Of a DNA stretch of 64,000 nt, positions 32,236 through 49,555 are shown in pieces. Position 1 is the first letter of the stretch. Each line of letters begins with the position of its first letter. This stretch comes from Paludisphaera rhizosphaerae (GTDB lineage Bacteria > Planctomycetota > Planctomycetia > Isosphaerales > Isosphaeraceae), in the NCBI RefSeq assembly GCF_011065895.1, contig NZ_JAALCR010000020.1, forward strand, positions 1-64,000. The letters run 5' to 3'. The notes under the pieces were generated by a model, which was given only the letters and a program-made list of their open reading frames with translations, was not told the origin of the DNA and made no database searches. The position numbers and the translations under genes were made by a program.

Positions 32236-33568
32236 GAAGCGATGGGCTGCGTACGGGAGGCCAGAGAACGGCGTTGCAGCGTTGCTGGGCGTCGTCGAAG
32301 CGGAGGCCGAGAAACCAGCGATCAAGGCGGCGATGTCGACGTTCGGCGTTTCGTGGCGGGGGGTGTATTCCGTGCGAGTTCTGGGCAGCGAAGAACCTGC
32401 GGCGTTCGTGGATGCGAGGAAGCCGGGAGAGTCTCGGCCGTGGGATGGATCCGACCTGGAGCCGCATGCGCTGTCTCTGCGTTATCCAGGCATGGGAGAC
32501 GCAGCGTACAAAGACCTTCTGGAGAGCGTGCAAAGCGTTGGGGCCAAGGAGGACATTGTTCTGTTTGAAGGGAAGATTCTCGACGGACGGCATCGCTACA
32601 AAGCCTATCGTGAGGTGGGCGTGCCGTTTAACGTTCGCGAATGGACTCCGGAAGAATGGGGCGACCCTCTCAAATTCGTTAAGGCTAAGAACCAAGCTCG
32701 ACGCGACCTGACAGTTGGGCAGCGTGCGGCGCTGGCGGTCGAGGACAGGGATAAGGACGCTGGCAAGGGCAGGGAAACAAGGCAGTCCAACCTCAAGACG
32801 GGTGTGGAGTCGCCAGATCCCCGAAGATTCAAAAATGAATCATCGGGAGGAAGGGCGACCGAGAACGTGGCGAAGGCTCACGGAGTCAGCGTCGGGTACG
32901 TCCACGAAGTGGGCAAGATCAGGGAAGCATCGCCGGAGACGTTCGAGCAGTTGAAGCGGGGAGAGGTCAGCATCCCGGAGGCAAGGGAAAAGCTCGGCCT
33001 TGCCAAGCCGAAGAAGCCCAAGCCGGAGCCGGATCCGGTTCCGTCTGATTCCGGACTCGTCACCGTCAACGGCGAACGCAAGTACGACGAAGGCGTTGAG
33101 CGTGCGAGAGCGGCTGGTGTGATCCCGGCCGGCGTCGCCGTCACCGTCGAAGATCCCGGCGACGAAGCCGGAGACGTTATCCAGGCCGTTCGCGAGGAAC
33201 AGGCTGAGGAAGCGGCGAAGGTCGACGACCTGACCGACGACGAATGGATTGCACGTCTGCCGCTGGCGTCGGTTCTCACGGGCGTCTCGCTGACGCGGTT
33301 CCGGATGGACGCGCTGTTCTTCCGGGCCTTCGAGCAAAAGATGCGGGGGTCGCTCAAGGCGTTCTACGGCAAGGCGGCGAAGGCTTATTACAAGGGCTCG
33401 TTCCGTGGCGTCGTCGGCTACGGCATCGAGCGGCTGCTTAGGGTTGAGCCTCCCGACCGCTGGCGGAAGTGCCCGCCCACGGACAAGGGCGGGTGCGATG
33501 GCAAGGGGACGGTGCCCATCGTCGGCGAGTGCGGCCTGTGCCATGGAAGGGGGTATCTGTCCAAATGA
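32228..33568 (+). CDS. ParB-like nuclease/HTH protein with C-terminal zinc-binding segment
   Basis: The protein has 446 residues. The ParB N-terminal fold is seen around residues 75-160 (SLRYPGMGDAAYKDLLESVQ, LFEGKILDGRHRYKAYREVG); a KorB/ParB-type helix-turn-helix follows (ENVAKAHGVSVGYVHEVGKI, about 218-240). A long charged linker (KPKKPKPEPDP) and a C-terminal CxxT..GGC...CGLCHGRG segment resembling a DnaJ-type zinc knuckle complete it. In phages such proteins control early expression or DNA modification. The copy of the prophage's repeated palindrome at 32819-32847 is translated inside this gene. Confidence 0.75.
   Translation: MAEKRWAAYGRPENGVAALLGVVEAEAEKPAIKAAMSTFGVSWRGVYSVRVLGSEEPAAFVDARKPGESRPWDGSDLEPHALSLRYPGMGDAAYKDLLESVQSVGAKEDIVLFEGKILDGRHRYKAYREVGVPFNVREWTPEEWGDPLKFVKAKNQARRDLTVGQRAALAVEDRDKDAGKGRETRQSNLKTGVESPDPRRFKNESSGGRATENVAKAHGVSVGYVHEVGKIREASPETFEQLKRGEVSIPEAREKLGLAKPKKPKPEPDPVPSDSGLVTVNGERKYDEGVERARAAGVIPAGVAVTVEDPGDEAGDVIQAVREEQAEEAAKVDDLTDDEWIARLPLASVLTGVSLTRFRMDALFFRAFEQKMRGSLKAFYGKAAKAYYKGSFRGVVGYGIERLLRVEPPDRWRKCPPTDKGGCDGKGTVPIVGECGLCHGRGYLSK
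32819..32847. repeat. CCCGATGATTCA palindrome, copy A (inside a gene)
   Basis: CCCCGAAGATTCA, loop AAAA, TGAATCATCGGG: one mismatch in the stem compared with the other three copies. It is the only copy within a coding region, where it encodes PRRFKNESSG in the ParB-like protein. Confidence 0.6.
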
Positions 33569-42993: not shown

Positions 42994-43039
42994 GCACGGC
43001 TCCCCGATGATTCATTTTTGAATCATCGGGGAGCCGTGC
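42994..43039 (+). terminator. CCCGATGATTCA palindrome, copy B, 21-bp stem
   Basis: GCACGGCTCCCCGATGATTC plus A pairs perfectly with its reverse complement around TTTT. The inner 13 pairs match the other copies; the outer GCACGGCT/AGCCGTGC pairing is private to this copy. It lies 32 bases after the ParB-like stop, and no T-run follows, so it is a terminator candidate, RNA end-stabiliser or protein site. Confidence 0.6.
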
Positions 43040-45625: not shown

Positions 45626-46003
45626 ATGAGGTACGTTAAAGGGCCGACGTTCGGGGTTCCGGCGATCATTCCGCCCGTGAATCAAGACGGCAAGACCGAC
45701 GTCGAGCCGGAACCGTTTTGGGACGACAACGCGCGTCAGCTTACGGTTGTGACGCCGAAGTACGATCCCGAAAAGGAGACGGCTCCGGCTCAGGCTCTCG
45801 TCTTCCTGATCCTTCCCGGCAGCGCTCTGTTGAAGGCGTCGGCCGACGACATCGTCAACGCCACGCTGCCGCGCACGACGACGGACATCAACAGCGATCC
45901 GGCCGGCGGCGTCACCGTGCCGCTGCCGCTGCCTCCCTATGACGAGAAGCTGGCGTACGTGGGTCAGCTCGTCTACGGCTACCAGGACACGGACGTAGCC
46001 TAA
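45626..46003 (+). CDS. Hypothetical protein upstream of the packaging module
   Basis: The protein has 125 residues, mostly beta-strand and loop (GPTFGVPAIIPPVNQDG, ALVFLILPGSALLKASADD, TVPLPLPPYDEKLAYVGQLV). No membrane helix or catalytic motif. It separates the envelope module from the terminase block and is followed by the structured leader of the HNH gene. Confidence 0.5.
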   Translation: MRYVKGPTFGVPAIIPPVNQDGKTDVEPEPFWDDNARQLTVVTPKYDPEKETAPAQALVFLILPGSALLKASADDIVNATLPRTTTDINSDPAGGVTVPLPLPPYDEKLAYVGQLVYGYQDTDVA

Positions 46004-46025
46004 ACCGCCTACAGCGTCTTTCCGT

Positions 46026-46110
46026 GCCTCTGACTCCGGCTCCCGGTTCCGGCTAATTGCCGGCAGGGCTTGGCTCCTCCCTGGGGAGGCTGGGAGCCGG
46101 AGTCAGGGGC
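46026..46110 (+). promoter_or_regulatory. Three-way-junction RNA masking the HNH ribosome site
   Basis: A 19-bp closing stem pairs 46026-46044 (GCCTCTGACTCCGGCTCCC) with 46092-46110, one G-U pair and no mismatch, and its last base is adjacent to ATG 46111. Two arms fill the loop: CCGGC/GCCGG (46049-46063) and CCTCC/GGAGG (46076-46089). Every candidate ribosome site (GGAG 46099-46102, AGGGG 46105-46109) lies in the closing stem, so initiation would need unfolding, cutting or coupling. A MITE-like origin is an alternative reading. Confidence 0.6.
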
Positions 46111-46473
46111 ATGGACAAGACGCCGCAGTTTCGAGTCGGGGCCGACCCCGACCTAGTGTTCCGACCGATCCAGCGGCGACCGCTGACGGACGCGGGAAGG
46201 ATCAAGCGGAAGAAGTTTTACAACTCGGCTGCGTGGCAGCGATGCCGCAGGCTGAAACTTCTACGCGATCCGATGTGCGCAAGCTGTGCGAAAGAGGGGA
46301 GGCACGTTGCCGCCGCTCACGTTCACCACATGATCGACCTGGCGGATGCCCCTGAACTCGCACTCACGTACTCCAATCTTGAGTCGCTCTGCCATCCGTG
46401 CCACTCACGCGAGACGCTCAAGAGGCTGAGGGAAGAACGCCATGAGCGTGATAGCTTGCCGGGTATACGCTGA
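46111..46473 (+). CDS. HNH endonuclease (packaging-associated)
   Basis: The protein has 120 residues. Motifs are FYNSAAWQRCRRLKLLRDPM, CASCAKEGRHVAAAHVHHMI (CxxC and the catalytic HH), then SNLESLCHPCHSRETLKRL (N and second CxxC). This is the HNH fold found next to terminases in HK97-type phages, where it supports DNA cleavage during packaging. Start ATG 46111 abuts the three-way-junction leader. It overlaps the HslV-like gene by 32 bases. Confidence 0.88.
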   Translation: MDKTPQFRVGADPDLVFRPIQRRPLTDAGRIKRKKFYNSAAWQRCRRLKLLRDPMCASCAKEGRHVAAAHVHHMIDLADAPELALTYSNLESLCHPCHSRETLKRLREERHERDSLPGIR

Positions 46474-46940: not shown

Positions 46941-47510
46941 ATGCAGGTGTACAACGTCGCTGCCATCGCTCACGTGTTCGCGGTCGTCGCCGGGATCATC
47001 TTCGCACTCGTGGTTCTGTGGCGGATACGGGACATCGAGCGGAGCGTTAAGCAGATCGCGGATAACGGAAACGCAACCTGGGTTCGGCTCGTCGGCGTCA
47101 ACCAGCGGCTACGCAACATCGACGGCCGGTTTGTCAGCGTGAGCCGGTATCTCGACGCGATCCGGGAATTCTTGCTGACTGACGCAAAACGCGTCGACGT
47201 CGGGCATGTGTTCTGGGCTCAAGGCGACGGCGACGGGTTCGTGGGCGCGGCCTGCTACTGCGACGGCAAGGATATCCGGTTCGTGGGCGTGCATCGCGAT
47301 CGGGCGTTGTCGCCGCAGGAAATCGAGTTCGTCAACGCCAACGATCAACGCATCTGGAACGTGCTCAAGTGGAAGCTGGCGACCCGAGAAACCTCGGTCG
47401 TCTGCTTTGACGAACTGATGGCGGCTGTGGAGGGCTCCGACGATGCCAGCGAGGGGGAGGAAACCGAAGAGGAAGACGGGAGCAAGCAACCGGCCGTTCA
47501 GCGGTGTTGA
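46941..47510 (+). CDS. Membrane-anchored hypothetical protein
   Basis: The protein has 189 residues. One transmembrane helix near the N-terminus (AIAHVFAVVAGIIFALVVLW) is followed by a coiled segment (RDIERSVKQIADNGNATWVR) and a soluble domain containing GDGFVGAACYCDGKDIRFVG. The end is acidic (EGSDDASEGEETEEEDG). The last 68 bases overlap the small terminase gene. Unusual in a packaging module; function unknown. Confidence 0.55.
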   Translation: MQVYNVAAIAHVFAVVAGIIFALVVLWRIRDIERSVKQIADNGNATWVRLVGVNQRLRNIDGRFVSVSRYLDAIREFLLTDAKRVDVGHVFWAQGDGDGFVGAACYCDGKDIRFVGVHRDRALSPQEIEFVNANDQRIWNVLKWKLATRETSVVCFDELMAAVEGSDDASEGEETEEEDGSKQPAVQRC

Positions 47511-47940
47511 CGCCGTAGGCGCTCCACCCAAACCGGCGATCATCGCTGACGACGTAGACGCGTCGGGGGAATGGGACCGGGTTTGCCAACTGCTGACGGA
47601 CAATCAGGTGTTGAGCCCGGCTGATCTCGGCATCCTCGTGGCCTACTGCTCGGCTTACTCGACGGTGGCGCGGTGTCGACGCGAACTCGCGTTTGAACCG
47701 ATGCTTGTTCACAACTCCAAGACTGGAGCCATCAAGACGCATCCGCTCTACAACACGTTGAGCGCGGCCGAAGGGGCTCTAGCACGCTACGCGGGTGTTC
47801 TCGGGCTGACGCCTGCGGATCGTGGGAGGGTCGAAGCTCTGGATAATTCCGATGCGGAGGCATCCAAGCTCGACAAGCTCAATGCAGCAACCGCGAAGGC
47901 TCGACATAGCGTCGTTCGATCCGTTCCGCTGCAAGGCTGA
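47443..47940 (+). CDS. terS: Terminase small subunit (P27 family)
   Basis: The protein has 165 residues. A basic N-terminus (MPARGRKPKRKTGASNRPFS) is followed by EWDRVCQLLTDNQVLSPADL, GILVAYCSAYSTVARCRREL and a C-terminal LYNTLSAAEGALARYAGVLG LTPADR pattern, the P27/phage terminase small-subunit signature. It recognises packaging DNA and recruits the large subunit; its 3' end overlaps the large-subunit gene by 59 bases. Confidence 0.88.
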   Translation: MPARGRKPKRKTGASNRPFSGVDAVGAPPKPAIIADDVDASGEWDRVCQLLTDNQVLSPADLGILVAYCSAYSTVARCRRELAFEPMLVHNSKTGAIKTHPLYNTLSAAEGALARYAGVLGLTPADRGRVEALDNSDAEASKLDKLNAATAKARHSVVRSVPLQG

Positions 47941-49555
47941 CGATCTGGCGGCAGCGGACGGGTACATCTGGGACCCGTCCGTTGCCCTGGGCGTCCAGAA
48001 CTGGATAGAGAACCTTTGCAAGCTCAGAGTAGGTGACTGGCGTGGTCAGAATATCACGTTGCAATGGTGGCAACAGGACTGGATCTGGAGGTTGTACGGC
48101 TGGGTTCACAAGGATACCGGACTTCGCCGCTTCCTTGAAGGCTACCTAGAGGTCGCGAAGAAGAACGGTAAGACGCCTCTGGTCGCTGCCCAAAGCCTGT
48201 ATCACCTGCTCGGCGACGGCGAACCCGCACCCGAAGTATACATTAACGCGTGCTCGCGCGAGCAGGCCGGCATTCTTTACCGAGACGCTTCCGTCATGGT
48301 GAAGATGGAGCCGGAGTTTAACGGCCGACTGGAGCTTGTGTCGTCGAGCAAGCGGATCGTCGACGAAGACGCGGACGGCTTTCTAGTCGCAAACTCATTC
48401 GAGAGCGAGAACAAAGACGGCGTGCAGTCGTCGTTCACCATCTTCGACGAACTCCACCGGCAACCGAACGACGAACTGTGGAACGTCTTCCAGTACGCTG
48501 GCGACTCGCGATCACAGCCGTTGCTCGTGTCCATCACGACGGCAGGCAGCGACATCACCAGCGTTTGCGGCCGGCAGCATGAACGGGCTCTAGCTCTGGA
48601 GACGGGTGCGAACCGGGAAACGCAGTTTCTGGGCGTCGTCTACGCGTCCCGAGACAAGAATCCCGACATCAACGATCGCAAGGTGTGGTATGCCGCAAAC
48701 CCGTCGATGGGCGTCATCATCGATGAAGCGAAGTTCGCCAAGCAGGTGGAATCGGTCCAGAACCAGGGACCTGCGGCCGTAGCCAACTTCAAGCGATTGA
48801 AGCTGAACCTATGGACCAACGAAGATAAGAAATTTATCAACCTGGCCAAATGGAACATTCAGCCGGCGCGTAGGACGCTTGAAGAGATCGCCGAAGCCGG
48901 AGACGTCTGGGCTGCTGGGCTCGACATGGCGATTAAGACCGACCTTAACGCCTACGTGCGAGTGACGGGGAATCTTGTCAAAGGCATCGACGTATTCACC
49001 AAGGTTTGGATACCCGAGGATACGGCGATACGGCGATCGAGGGAGGAAAACCTTCCGTACATGGAGTACGCGGACAGAGGATTCGTGGAGCTTGTTCCCG
49101 GCAGCGTCATGAATCCGCAGATCGTGCAGGATTTCATCGAGGAAGAACACGCCAAATTCCGGCTCAAGTACGTGCTCTCCGACCATGTGAATACGGGTGC
49201 GATGGCTCCGTATCTGGTCAAACGCGGCGTTCCATTCCAGCACCTGAAGCCGAGCAACTTCTACCACAACTTTCCCACCAAAACGGTGGAGTCGCTGTAC
49301 CTCCAAAACAAGCTGAGACACGGCGACGACCCCATGTTGGCTTACTGCGCCGGCAACGCGTGCGTCGACATCGACGATCGCAACGACAACATGCGGTTGG
49401 TCAAGGGCAAGTCGACGGCTCGCATCGACGCGATGATTGCTCTCGTCTCGGCAGTCGCCGGGCTGCTGCGTGCTATCGGGCTCGACGGCTTCGGCGGCGA
49501 CGCTGCGAAGAAACCGCCGCGCCCCGATGTCGCGAATCAACTGATTTGGATCTGA
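47882..49555 (+). CDS. terL: Terminase large subunit
   Basis: The protein has 557 residues from ATG 47882 (frame opens at 47822). ATPase domain: LQWWQQDWIWRLYGWVHKDT, variant Walker A in YLEVAKKNGKTPLVAAQ (about residues 82-92), SREQAGILYRDASVM, Walker B in SSFTIFDELHRQPND, and the coupling motif region VSITTAGSD. Nuclease domain: AAGLDMAIKTDLNAYVRVTG, KYVLSDHVNTGAMAPYLVKR and the late acidic ARIDAMIALVSAVAG. Domain order and length fit HK97-type large terminases, which translocate and cut concatemeric DNA. Confidence 0.93.
   Translation: MQQPRRLDIASFDPFRCKADDLAAADGYIWDPSVALGVQNWIENLCKLRVGDWRGQNITLQWWQQDWIWRLYGWVHKDTGLRRFLEGYLEVAKKNGKTPLVAAQSLYHLLGDGEPAPEVYINACSREQAGILYRDASVMVKMEPEFNGRLELVSSSKRIVDEDADGFLVANSFESENKDGVQSSFTIFDELHRQPNDELWNVFQYAGDSRSQPLLVSITTAGSDITSVCGRQHERALALETGANRETQFLGVVYASRDKNPDINDRKVWYAANPSMGVIIDEAKFAKQVESVQNQGPAAVANFKRLKLNLWTNEDKKFINLAKWNIQPARRTLEEIAEAGDVWAAGLDMAIKTDLNAYVRVTGNLVKGIDVFTKVWIPEDTAIRRSREENLPYMEYADRGFVELVPGSVMNPQIVQDFIEEEHAKFRLKYVLSDHVNTGAMAPYLVKRGVPFQHLKPSNFYHNFPTKTVESLYLQNKLRHGDDPMLAYCAGNACVDIDDRNDNMRLVKGKSTARIDAMIALVSAVAGLLRAIGLDGFGGDAAKKPPRPDVANQLIWI

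Follow-up and report, generated by a model that had tools for sequence, protein, structure and literature searches.

Hairpins that hide the ribosome site are described for the homing endonuclease genes of phages, the HNH gene mobE included (PMC2988022, PMC3014915), and in T4 I-TevI, and similarly in mobE, the placement of a promoter lets transcripts escape the hairpin (PMC2988022). Occluded ribosome sites can also be freed by RNase III, which is the case in adhE and in lambda cIII (PMC5371410), while template switching is a documented route by which a hairpin stem is formed in a single event (PMC8794818). The general idea, that is, hairpins hiding the ribosome sites of phage endonuclease genes as well as sites released by RNase III, is already known. 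An earlier reading of the present locus, made from the sequence only, had considered the control of an HNH gene by a hairpin at its start as not yet described, but hairpins of this kind, including that of the HNH gene mobE, are in print, as far as the accounts in these sources go (PMC2988022, PMC3014915). Our literature search, which covered titles and the openings of abstracts, returned nothing on an inverted repeat over the start codon of a phage HNH gene near the terminase.

Such an inverted repeat is found in a prophage of the planctomycete Paludisphaera rhizosphaerae, in the stretch of DNA analysed here (the window, 64,000 nucleotides, positions 1 to 64,000 of contig NZ_JAALCR010000020.1), at the start of an HNH endonuclease gene. 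The features of the locus are the following:

45626..46003, + strand: upstream gene, 125 aa, function unassigned (no Pfam or PHROG match; a homologue lies 5' of HNH in the Paludisphaera soli prophage)
46014..46044, + strand: left arm of the hairpin, most plausibly the HNH gene start copied in reverse complement (inverted identity of 91% to 46092-46123)
46030..46057, + strand: CTGACT-16-GCTAAT, a weak resemblance to a promoter, across left arm and spacer (8/12 matches, chance level)
46045..46091, + strand: spacer of 47 nt, with small inner hairpins and an uncertain apex structure (fold prediction)
46092..46123, + strand: right arm (from the alignment), holding both candidate ribosome sites and running over the start codon and codons 2-4 to the first base of codon 5; its coding part is native
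46099..46102, + strand: GGAG, candidate Shine-Dalgarno site, paired (sequence and predicted fold)
46105..46109, + strand: AGGGG, second candidate Shine-Dalgarno site, paired (sequence and predicted fold)
46111..46473, + strand: HNH endonuclease gene, 120 aa (Pfam HNH, E 3.1e-10; phrog_144, E 4.6e-22)
47443..47940, + strand: terminase small subunit, downstream of HNH (Pfam/PHROG)
47822..49555, + strand: terminase large subunit, downstream of HNH (Pfam/PHROG)

The HNH gene starts with the ATG at 46111, as the sequence-only reading had assumed, and its P. soli homologue begins at the matching codon, which is a GTG. It is followed by an ORF with a match to the PHROG 'peptidase HslV family', another ORF, the small and large subunits of the terminase, and the portal, and is separated from the upstream gene by a gap of 107 nt, most of which is occupied by the hairpin element. 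An in-frame GTG is present at 46156, downstream of the ATG, and the best PHROG match begins at residue 31; judging from these positions, a start at this GTG would leave the HNH domain whole. For the upstream gene, a pattern search of viral contigs gave no relative, this search being insensitive, as it missed the homologue of the P. soli prophage (L073) that is present there. Two further reading-frame elements were noted in the left arm and immediately after it: a ten-codon GTG...TAA frame (46024-46056), in frame with HNH, for which no ribosome site was seen, and directly after it an in-frame TTG (46057) that would add 18 residues to HNH. A second pair of HNH and large-terminase genes is located elsewhere in the host genome (G000:C6:147224-150156, L047); it probably belongs to another prophage, and no start-site hairpin was detected there in the scans.

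The segment 46026-46110 (85 nt) has a predicted fold of -64.2 kcal/mol, against a mean of -41.58 kcal/mol for dinucleotide shuffles (z -6.35), and none of 200 shuffles was as stable, which bears out the strong folding claimed for it at the outset. The claim of a perfect 19-bp stem holds in part: the 19 pairs of the inner stem (46026-46044/46092-46110) exist, of which 18 are Watson-Crick and one is U-G (46029/46107). This stem does not close on the base before the AUG, as had been thought, since pairing runs on to 46014/46123. Two of the 31 pairs of the full stem are G-U (46024/46112 and 46029/46107), and a C at 46116 is bulged; the stem passes through the AUG at 46111 and codons 2-4 of HNH, ending at the first base of codon 5. 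The minimum free energy (MFE) of a larger segment, 46004-46135, is -87.3 kcal/mol. Both candidate ribosome sites do sit in the right strand of the stem, as was proposed, whereas the three-way junction or cloverleaf is not firm: at the apex, the MFE structure, whose ensemble frequency is 0.36, shows three short hairpins of 5, 4 and 4 bp.

The similarity between the two arms was also recovered by BLAST against the genome, which gives the same inverted match. Aligned locally to the reverse-complemented right side, the left side scores 47, whereas the best of 2000 mononucleotide shuffles reaches 29, and no start-touching hairpin as good as that of the window appeared in 300 Markov simulations of the 360-nt region. 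A chance origin of the arm match is excluded. Weaker matching of the arms extends to 46009/46128, and over 46009-46044 versus 46092-46128 the differences amount to four transitions and one indel; because the arms carry these differences, we judge an assembly foldback artefact to be unlikely. The stem was also considered as an intrinsic terminator and rejected as such, since neither the sequence nor a terminator scan reveals a T tract 3' of it. In a search of Rfam 15 with the hairpin, no family reached its gathering score, and only sub-threshold look-alikes were returned (microRNA families, HBV epsilon).

The locus has its closest relative in Paludisphaera soli JC670, where a prophage (L073, L100) is syntenic with it and has a large terminase that is 71% identical. 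Its HNH homologue reads GTGGACAAG at the position where the window has ATGGACAAG. Since P. soli shares these first HNH codons, the right arm is ancestral in its coding part, and it is the left arm that is most readily taken for the copy. In P. soli, two other ORFs are located between the homologue of the upstream gene and HNH, and the left arm is absent; because the gap holds these two ORFs, the pre-duplication locus is not alignable and the event is not seen directly. When the left arm and spacer were sought in the P. soli gap, the score was 18 versus a shuffle maximum of 31, so no match was obtained. The 40 nt before the start codon align to P. soli at chance level, with 127 of 1000 shuffles as good.

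We consider it probable that the feature is a quasi-palindrome formed by inverted duplication of the HNH start, which damps HNH and represents a lineage-specific rearrangement and not a conserved, regulated switch. We found no evidence for a switch of the latter kind, and the simplest reading is that of a one-off rearrangement, restricted to this lineage, that damps HNH beside the packaging genes. One arm is the reverse complement of adjoining native sequence, as a template switch would leave it. In the process envisaged, a replication template switch could have placed into the 107-nt gap a reverse-complement copy of the sequence surrounding the HNH start, from 46092 to 46123 or possibly as far as 46128, and the arms would since have diverged by the four transitions and one indel now seen between them. 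The read-through transcript is predicted to fold into the 31-pair stem over the ribosome sites, the AUG and codons 2-4, so initiation at 46111 would be strongly reduced, and HNH may then be made from transcripts initiated in the spacer, upon occasional opening of the stem, or from the in-frame GTG at 46156. The hairpins attributed to template switching in PMC8794818 resemble the present one in having an adjacent reverse-complement copy, a near-perfect stem and later point substitutions. They differ in that the examples given there are microRNA and rRNA genes, whereas the sequence captured at the present locus is the start of a protein gene of a phage, and in that the ancestral state here is not alignable. 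Two of the four differences between the arms keep the pairing as G-U (46024/46112 and 46029/46107), which would also fit selection at the RNA level and speaks against the reading as a one-off rearrangement.

For the comparison with other HNH genes, we scanned 22 relatives (19 genome loci and three viral-contig loci) for start hairpins with a 5-base seed; one of them, L030, has only 24 bases before the match and its start is not judgeable. A start-site stem as long as that of the window is present in none of the 22, which speaks against the dedicated, conserved control point that had been proposed. The sequence-only reading had itself held that it would fail if related phages lacked the pairing, and the syntenic P. 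soli prophage indeed lacks it. Weaker hairpins flank the start in two of the 22, P. soli and L035, in other registers and with the start codon in the loop. That of P. soli has 12 bp and one mismatch, spanning -34..+20 around the start (8 of 300 simulations as good), and that of L035 (G008:C154) has 15 bp and two mismatches (4 of 300 as good), while in the same scan the window gives 24 bp with two mismatches, before seven further pairs are counted (0 of 300 as good). Two weaker hairpins in 22 tests are close to what is expected by chance, yet they also have the look of a recurrent start-site structure; this is weak evidence, and we leave room for repeated, non-homologous structure at the starts of these HNH genes. 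Further upstream of the HNH start, hairpins of 16 bp (L035) and 12 bp (L044), each with one mismatch, were also observed.

Start-site structure of such stability generally blocks initiation. The mean unpaired probability at -18..+3 is 0.00 in the window versus 0.33 in P. soli, and it ranges from 0.17 (L035) to 0.70 at the candidate starts of the HNH relatives. Since the start region is fully paired in the prediction, very little translation is to be expected at 46111 from read-through RNA, and a strong reduction of HNH translation is likely on this model. The silencing of HNH until the stem is opened or cut, as put forward in the sequence-only reading, is therefore upheld by the predicted pairing as regards the block, but not as regards the release by cutting: the outer duplex that would remain after an RNase III-like cut has 17 bp and -27.3 kcal/mol and covers the AUG, so that cutting the stem would not obviously free the start.

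The hairpin might work as a translational switch like those of T4 I-TevI and mobE, with read-through RNA silenced by the stem and short, late transcripts, begun at a promoter in the left arm or spacer, being translated; this can hold together with an origin by inverted duplication. We regard such a switch as possible but rather doubtful. The predicted sequestration of the ribosome sites and AUG, the carriage of the HNH gene by a phage and the start-flanking hairpins of two relatives, although in other registers, all point towards it, and the mechanism outlined in PMC2988022 has the same layout. In T4 I-TevI/II/III, segB and Aeh1 mobE, a stable hairpin in the read-through RNA hides the endonuclease ribosome site (PMC2988022, PMC3014915). 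The window differs from these systems in that the stem also covers the AUG and codons 2-4, with one arm apparently a copy of the gene start, in that the HNH gene adjoins packaging genes and is not in an intron, and in that the hairpin is conserved in no relative (0/22) and the late promoter is only a candidate. This candidate, the weak match at 46030-46057, is positioned to start transcripts in the spacer, which would be without the left arm; however, it is at chance level, as 153 of 1206 window tiles hold a match at least as good, and a stricter promoter scan (9 of 12) lists none in the left arm or spacer. We know of no late promoters of planctomycete phages. That a template switch built at once the lock over the HNH start codon and, in the copied arm or spacer, the promoter for late escape (46030-46057), and so a newborn timing device, is a conjecture that we think unlikely to be correct. 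The hairpin could also act between the genes of an operon in RNase III-type processing or in mRNA stabilisation, setting different levels for the upstream gene and HNH, and the long double-stranded stem in an intergenic gap is in keeping with such a role. An RNase III site needs a double-stranded stem of about two turns or more, and 31 pairs are available here. The release of an occluded ribosome site is described for adhE and lambda cIII, which likewise have a long stem at the translation start (PMC5371410), but a cut in the window stem would leave the AUG in the 17-bp duplex, and the stem is missing from all 22 relatives, which makes this role decidedly improbable.

The RNA fold would be incidental if the palindrome were a site in the DNA, such as a phage cos or packaging site or a target of the HNH/terminase complex, and its place beside the HNH and terminase genes, filling most of the gap, is compatible with this. 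In 29 of the 60 phage records listed (304 matched), however, the HNH match ends less than 300 nt from the right end of the record, 20 of these 29 being Paenibacillus phages, many of which are near-identical to each other; in one record of the 60, from a Caulobacter phage, HNH is at the left end. This suggests that the genome ends lie downstream of HNH in the right-end records, which is weakly against a cos site at the hairpin; with the P. soli prophage having no such palindrome, we consider a DNA-level site very unlikely. Insertion of a mobile palindromic element (REPIN- or MITE-like) before HNH is brought to mind by the dispersed palindromes of similar size in the host, for instance the GTGCCATGGCCACGC family of about 92 bp. 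Yet a second copy was not found in the 8.05-Mb host genome, where the best match apart from the element has E 0.38. Searches of 44 further genomes from the order gave nothing at E <= 1e-4 (at most 19 candidates scored per genome), 50,697 phage records likewise yielded no copy, and no viral contig has the exact 15-nt inner arms at this distance from each other. Among 397 genomes of the class, each scored for only two candidates, one (G388) shows a partial match to an arm over 29 bases, with E 9.6e-4, which we took as chance. Tested against five host palindromes, the hairpin, moreover, scores only 12-18, below the 95% shuffle levels of 19-21, and thus fails to align with them; the flanks share no direct repeat of 6 nt or more, the longest being of 5 nt (GGACA at 45985 and 46113) and not at the ends, and one arm lies within the shared HNH codons. 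A mobile insertion with target-site duplication, which the sequence-only reading had named as something that would overturn it, is on these grounds scarcely credible.

Inverted duplication of the HNH start, the reading that we prefer, would make this locus a clear natural case in which one such event can place a gene start in a 31-pair stem. It would also allow a simple reporter to test how a hairpin that silences translation comes into being, and it implies that, for this phage, HNH expression is not to be assumed from an intact reading frame.

The host genome contains other palindromes, which we counted with a 10-base seed, so that the counts are lower bounds. At least 21 with arms of at least 18 and no more than two mismatches are present in 1.264 Mb, the window hairpin included, and at least 12 with arms of at least 16 in 400 kb, versus 3, 3 and 5 in three Markov simulations. 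The GTGCCATGGCCACGC-ended family, about 92 bp long and REPIN- or MITE-like, is represented by L117 (G000:C2:283507-283598) and L142 (G000:C7:66459-66552); its half-sites give 73 + 74 matches versus 1 + 1 in the control, many of them in pairs about 78 bp apart. A second type, with GATGAGGGGG arms, occurs at L141 (G000:C7:53824-53913), at L135 (G000:C6:49262-49390) and in stretches of G000:C1, and is once nested within a palindrome with 29-bp arms. The window also holds four copies of a palindrome of the form CCCCGATGATTCA-(T or A)n-TGAATCATCGGGG, with up to two mismatches, at 32819, 43002, 53285 and 58316; outside the window, the 8.05-Mb genome has no copy with three or fewer mismatches. This palindrome is terminator- or operator-like, and two of its copies, those at 43002 and 58316, have outer arms of another sequence that are still self-complementary.
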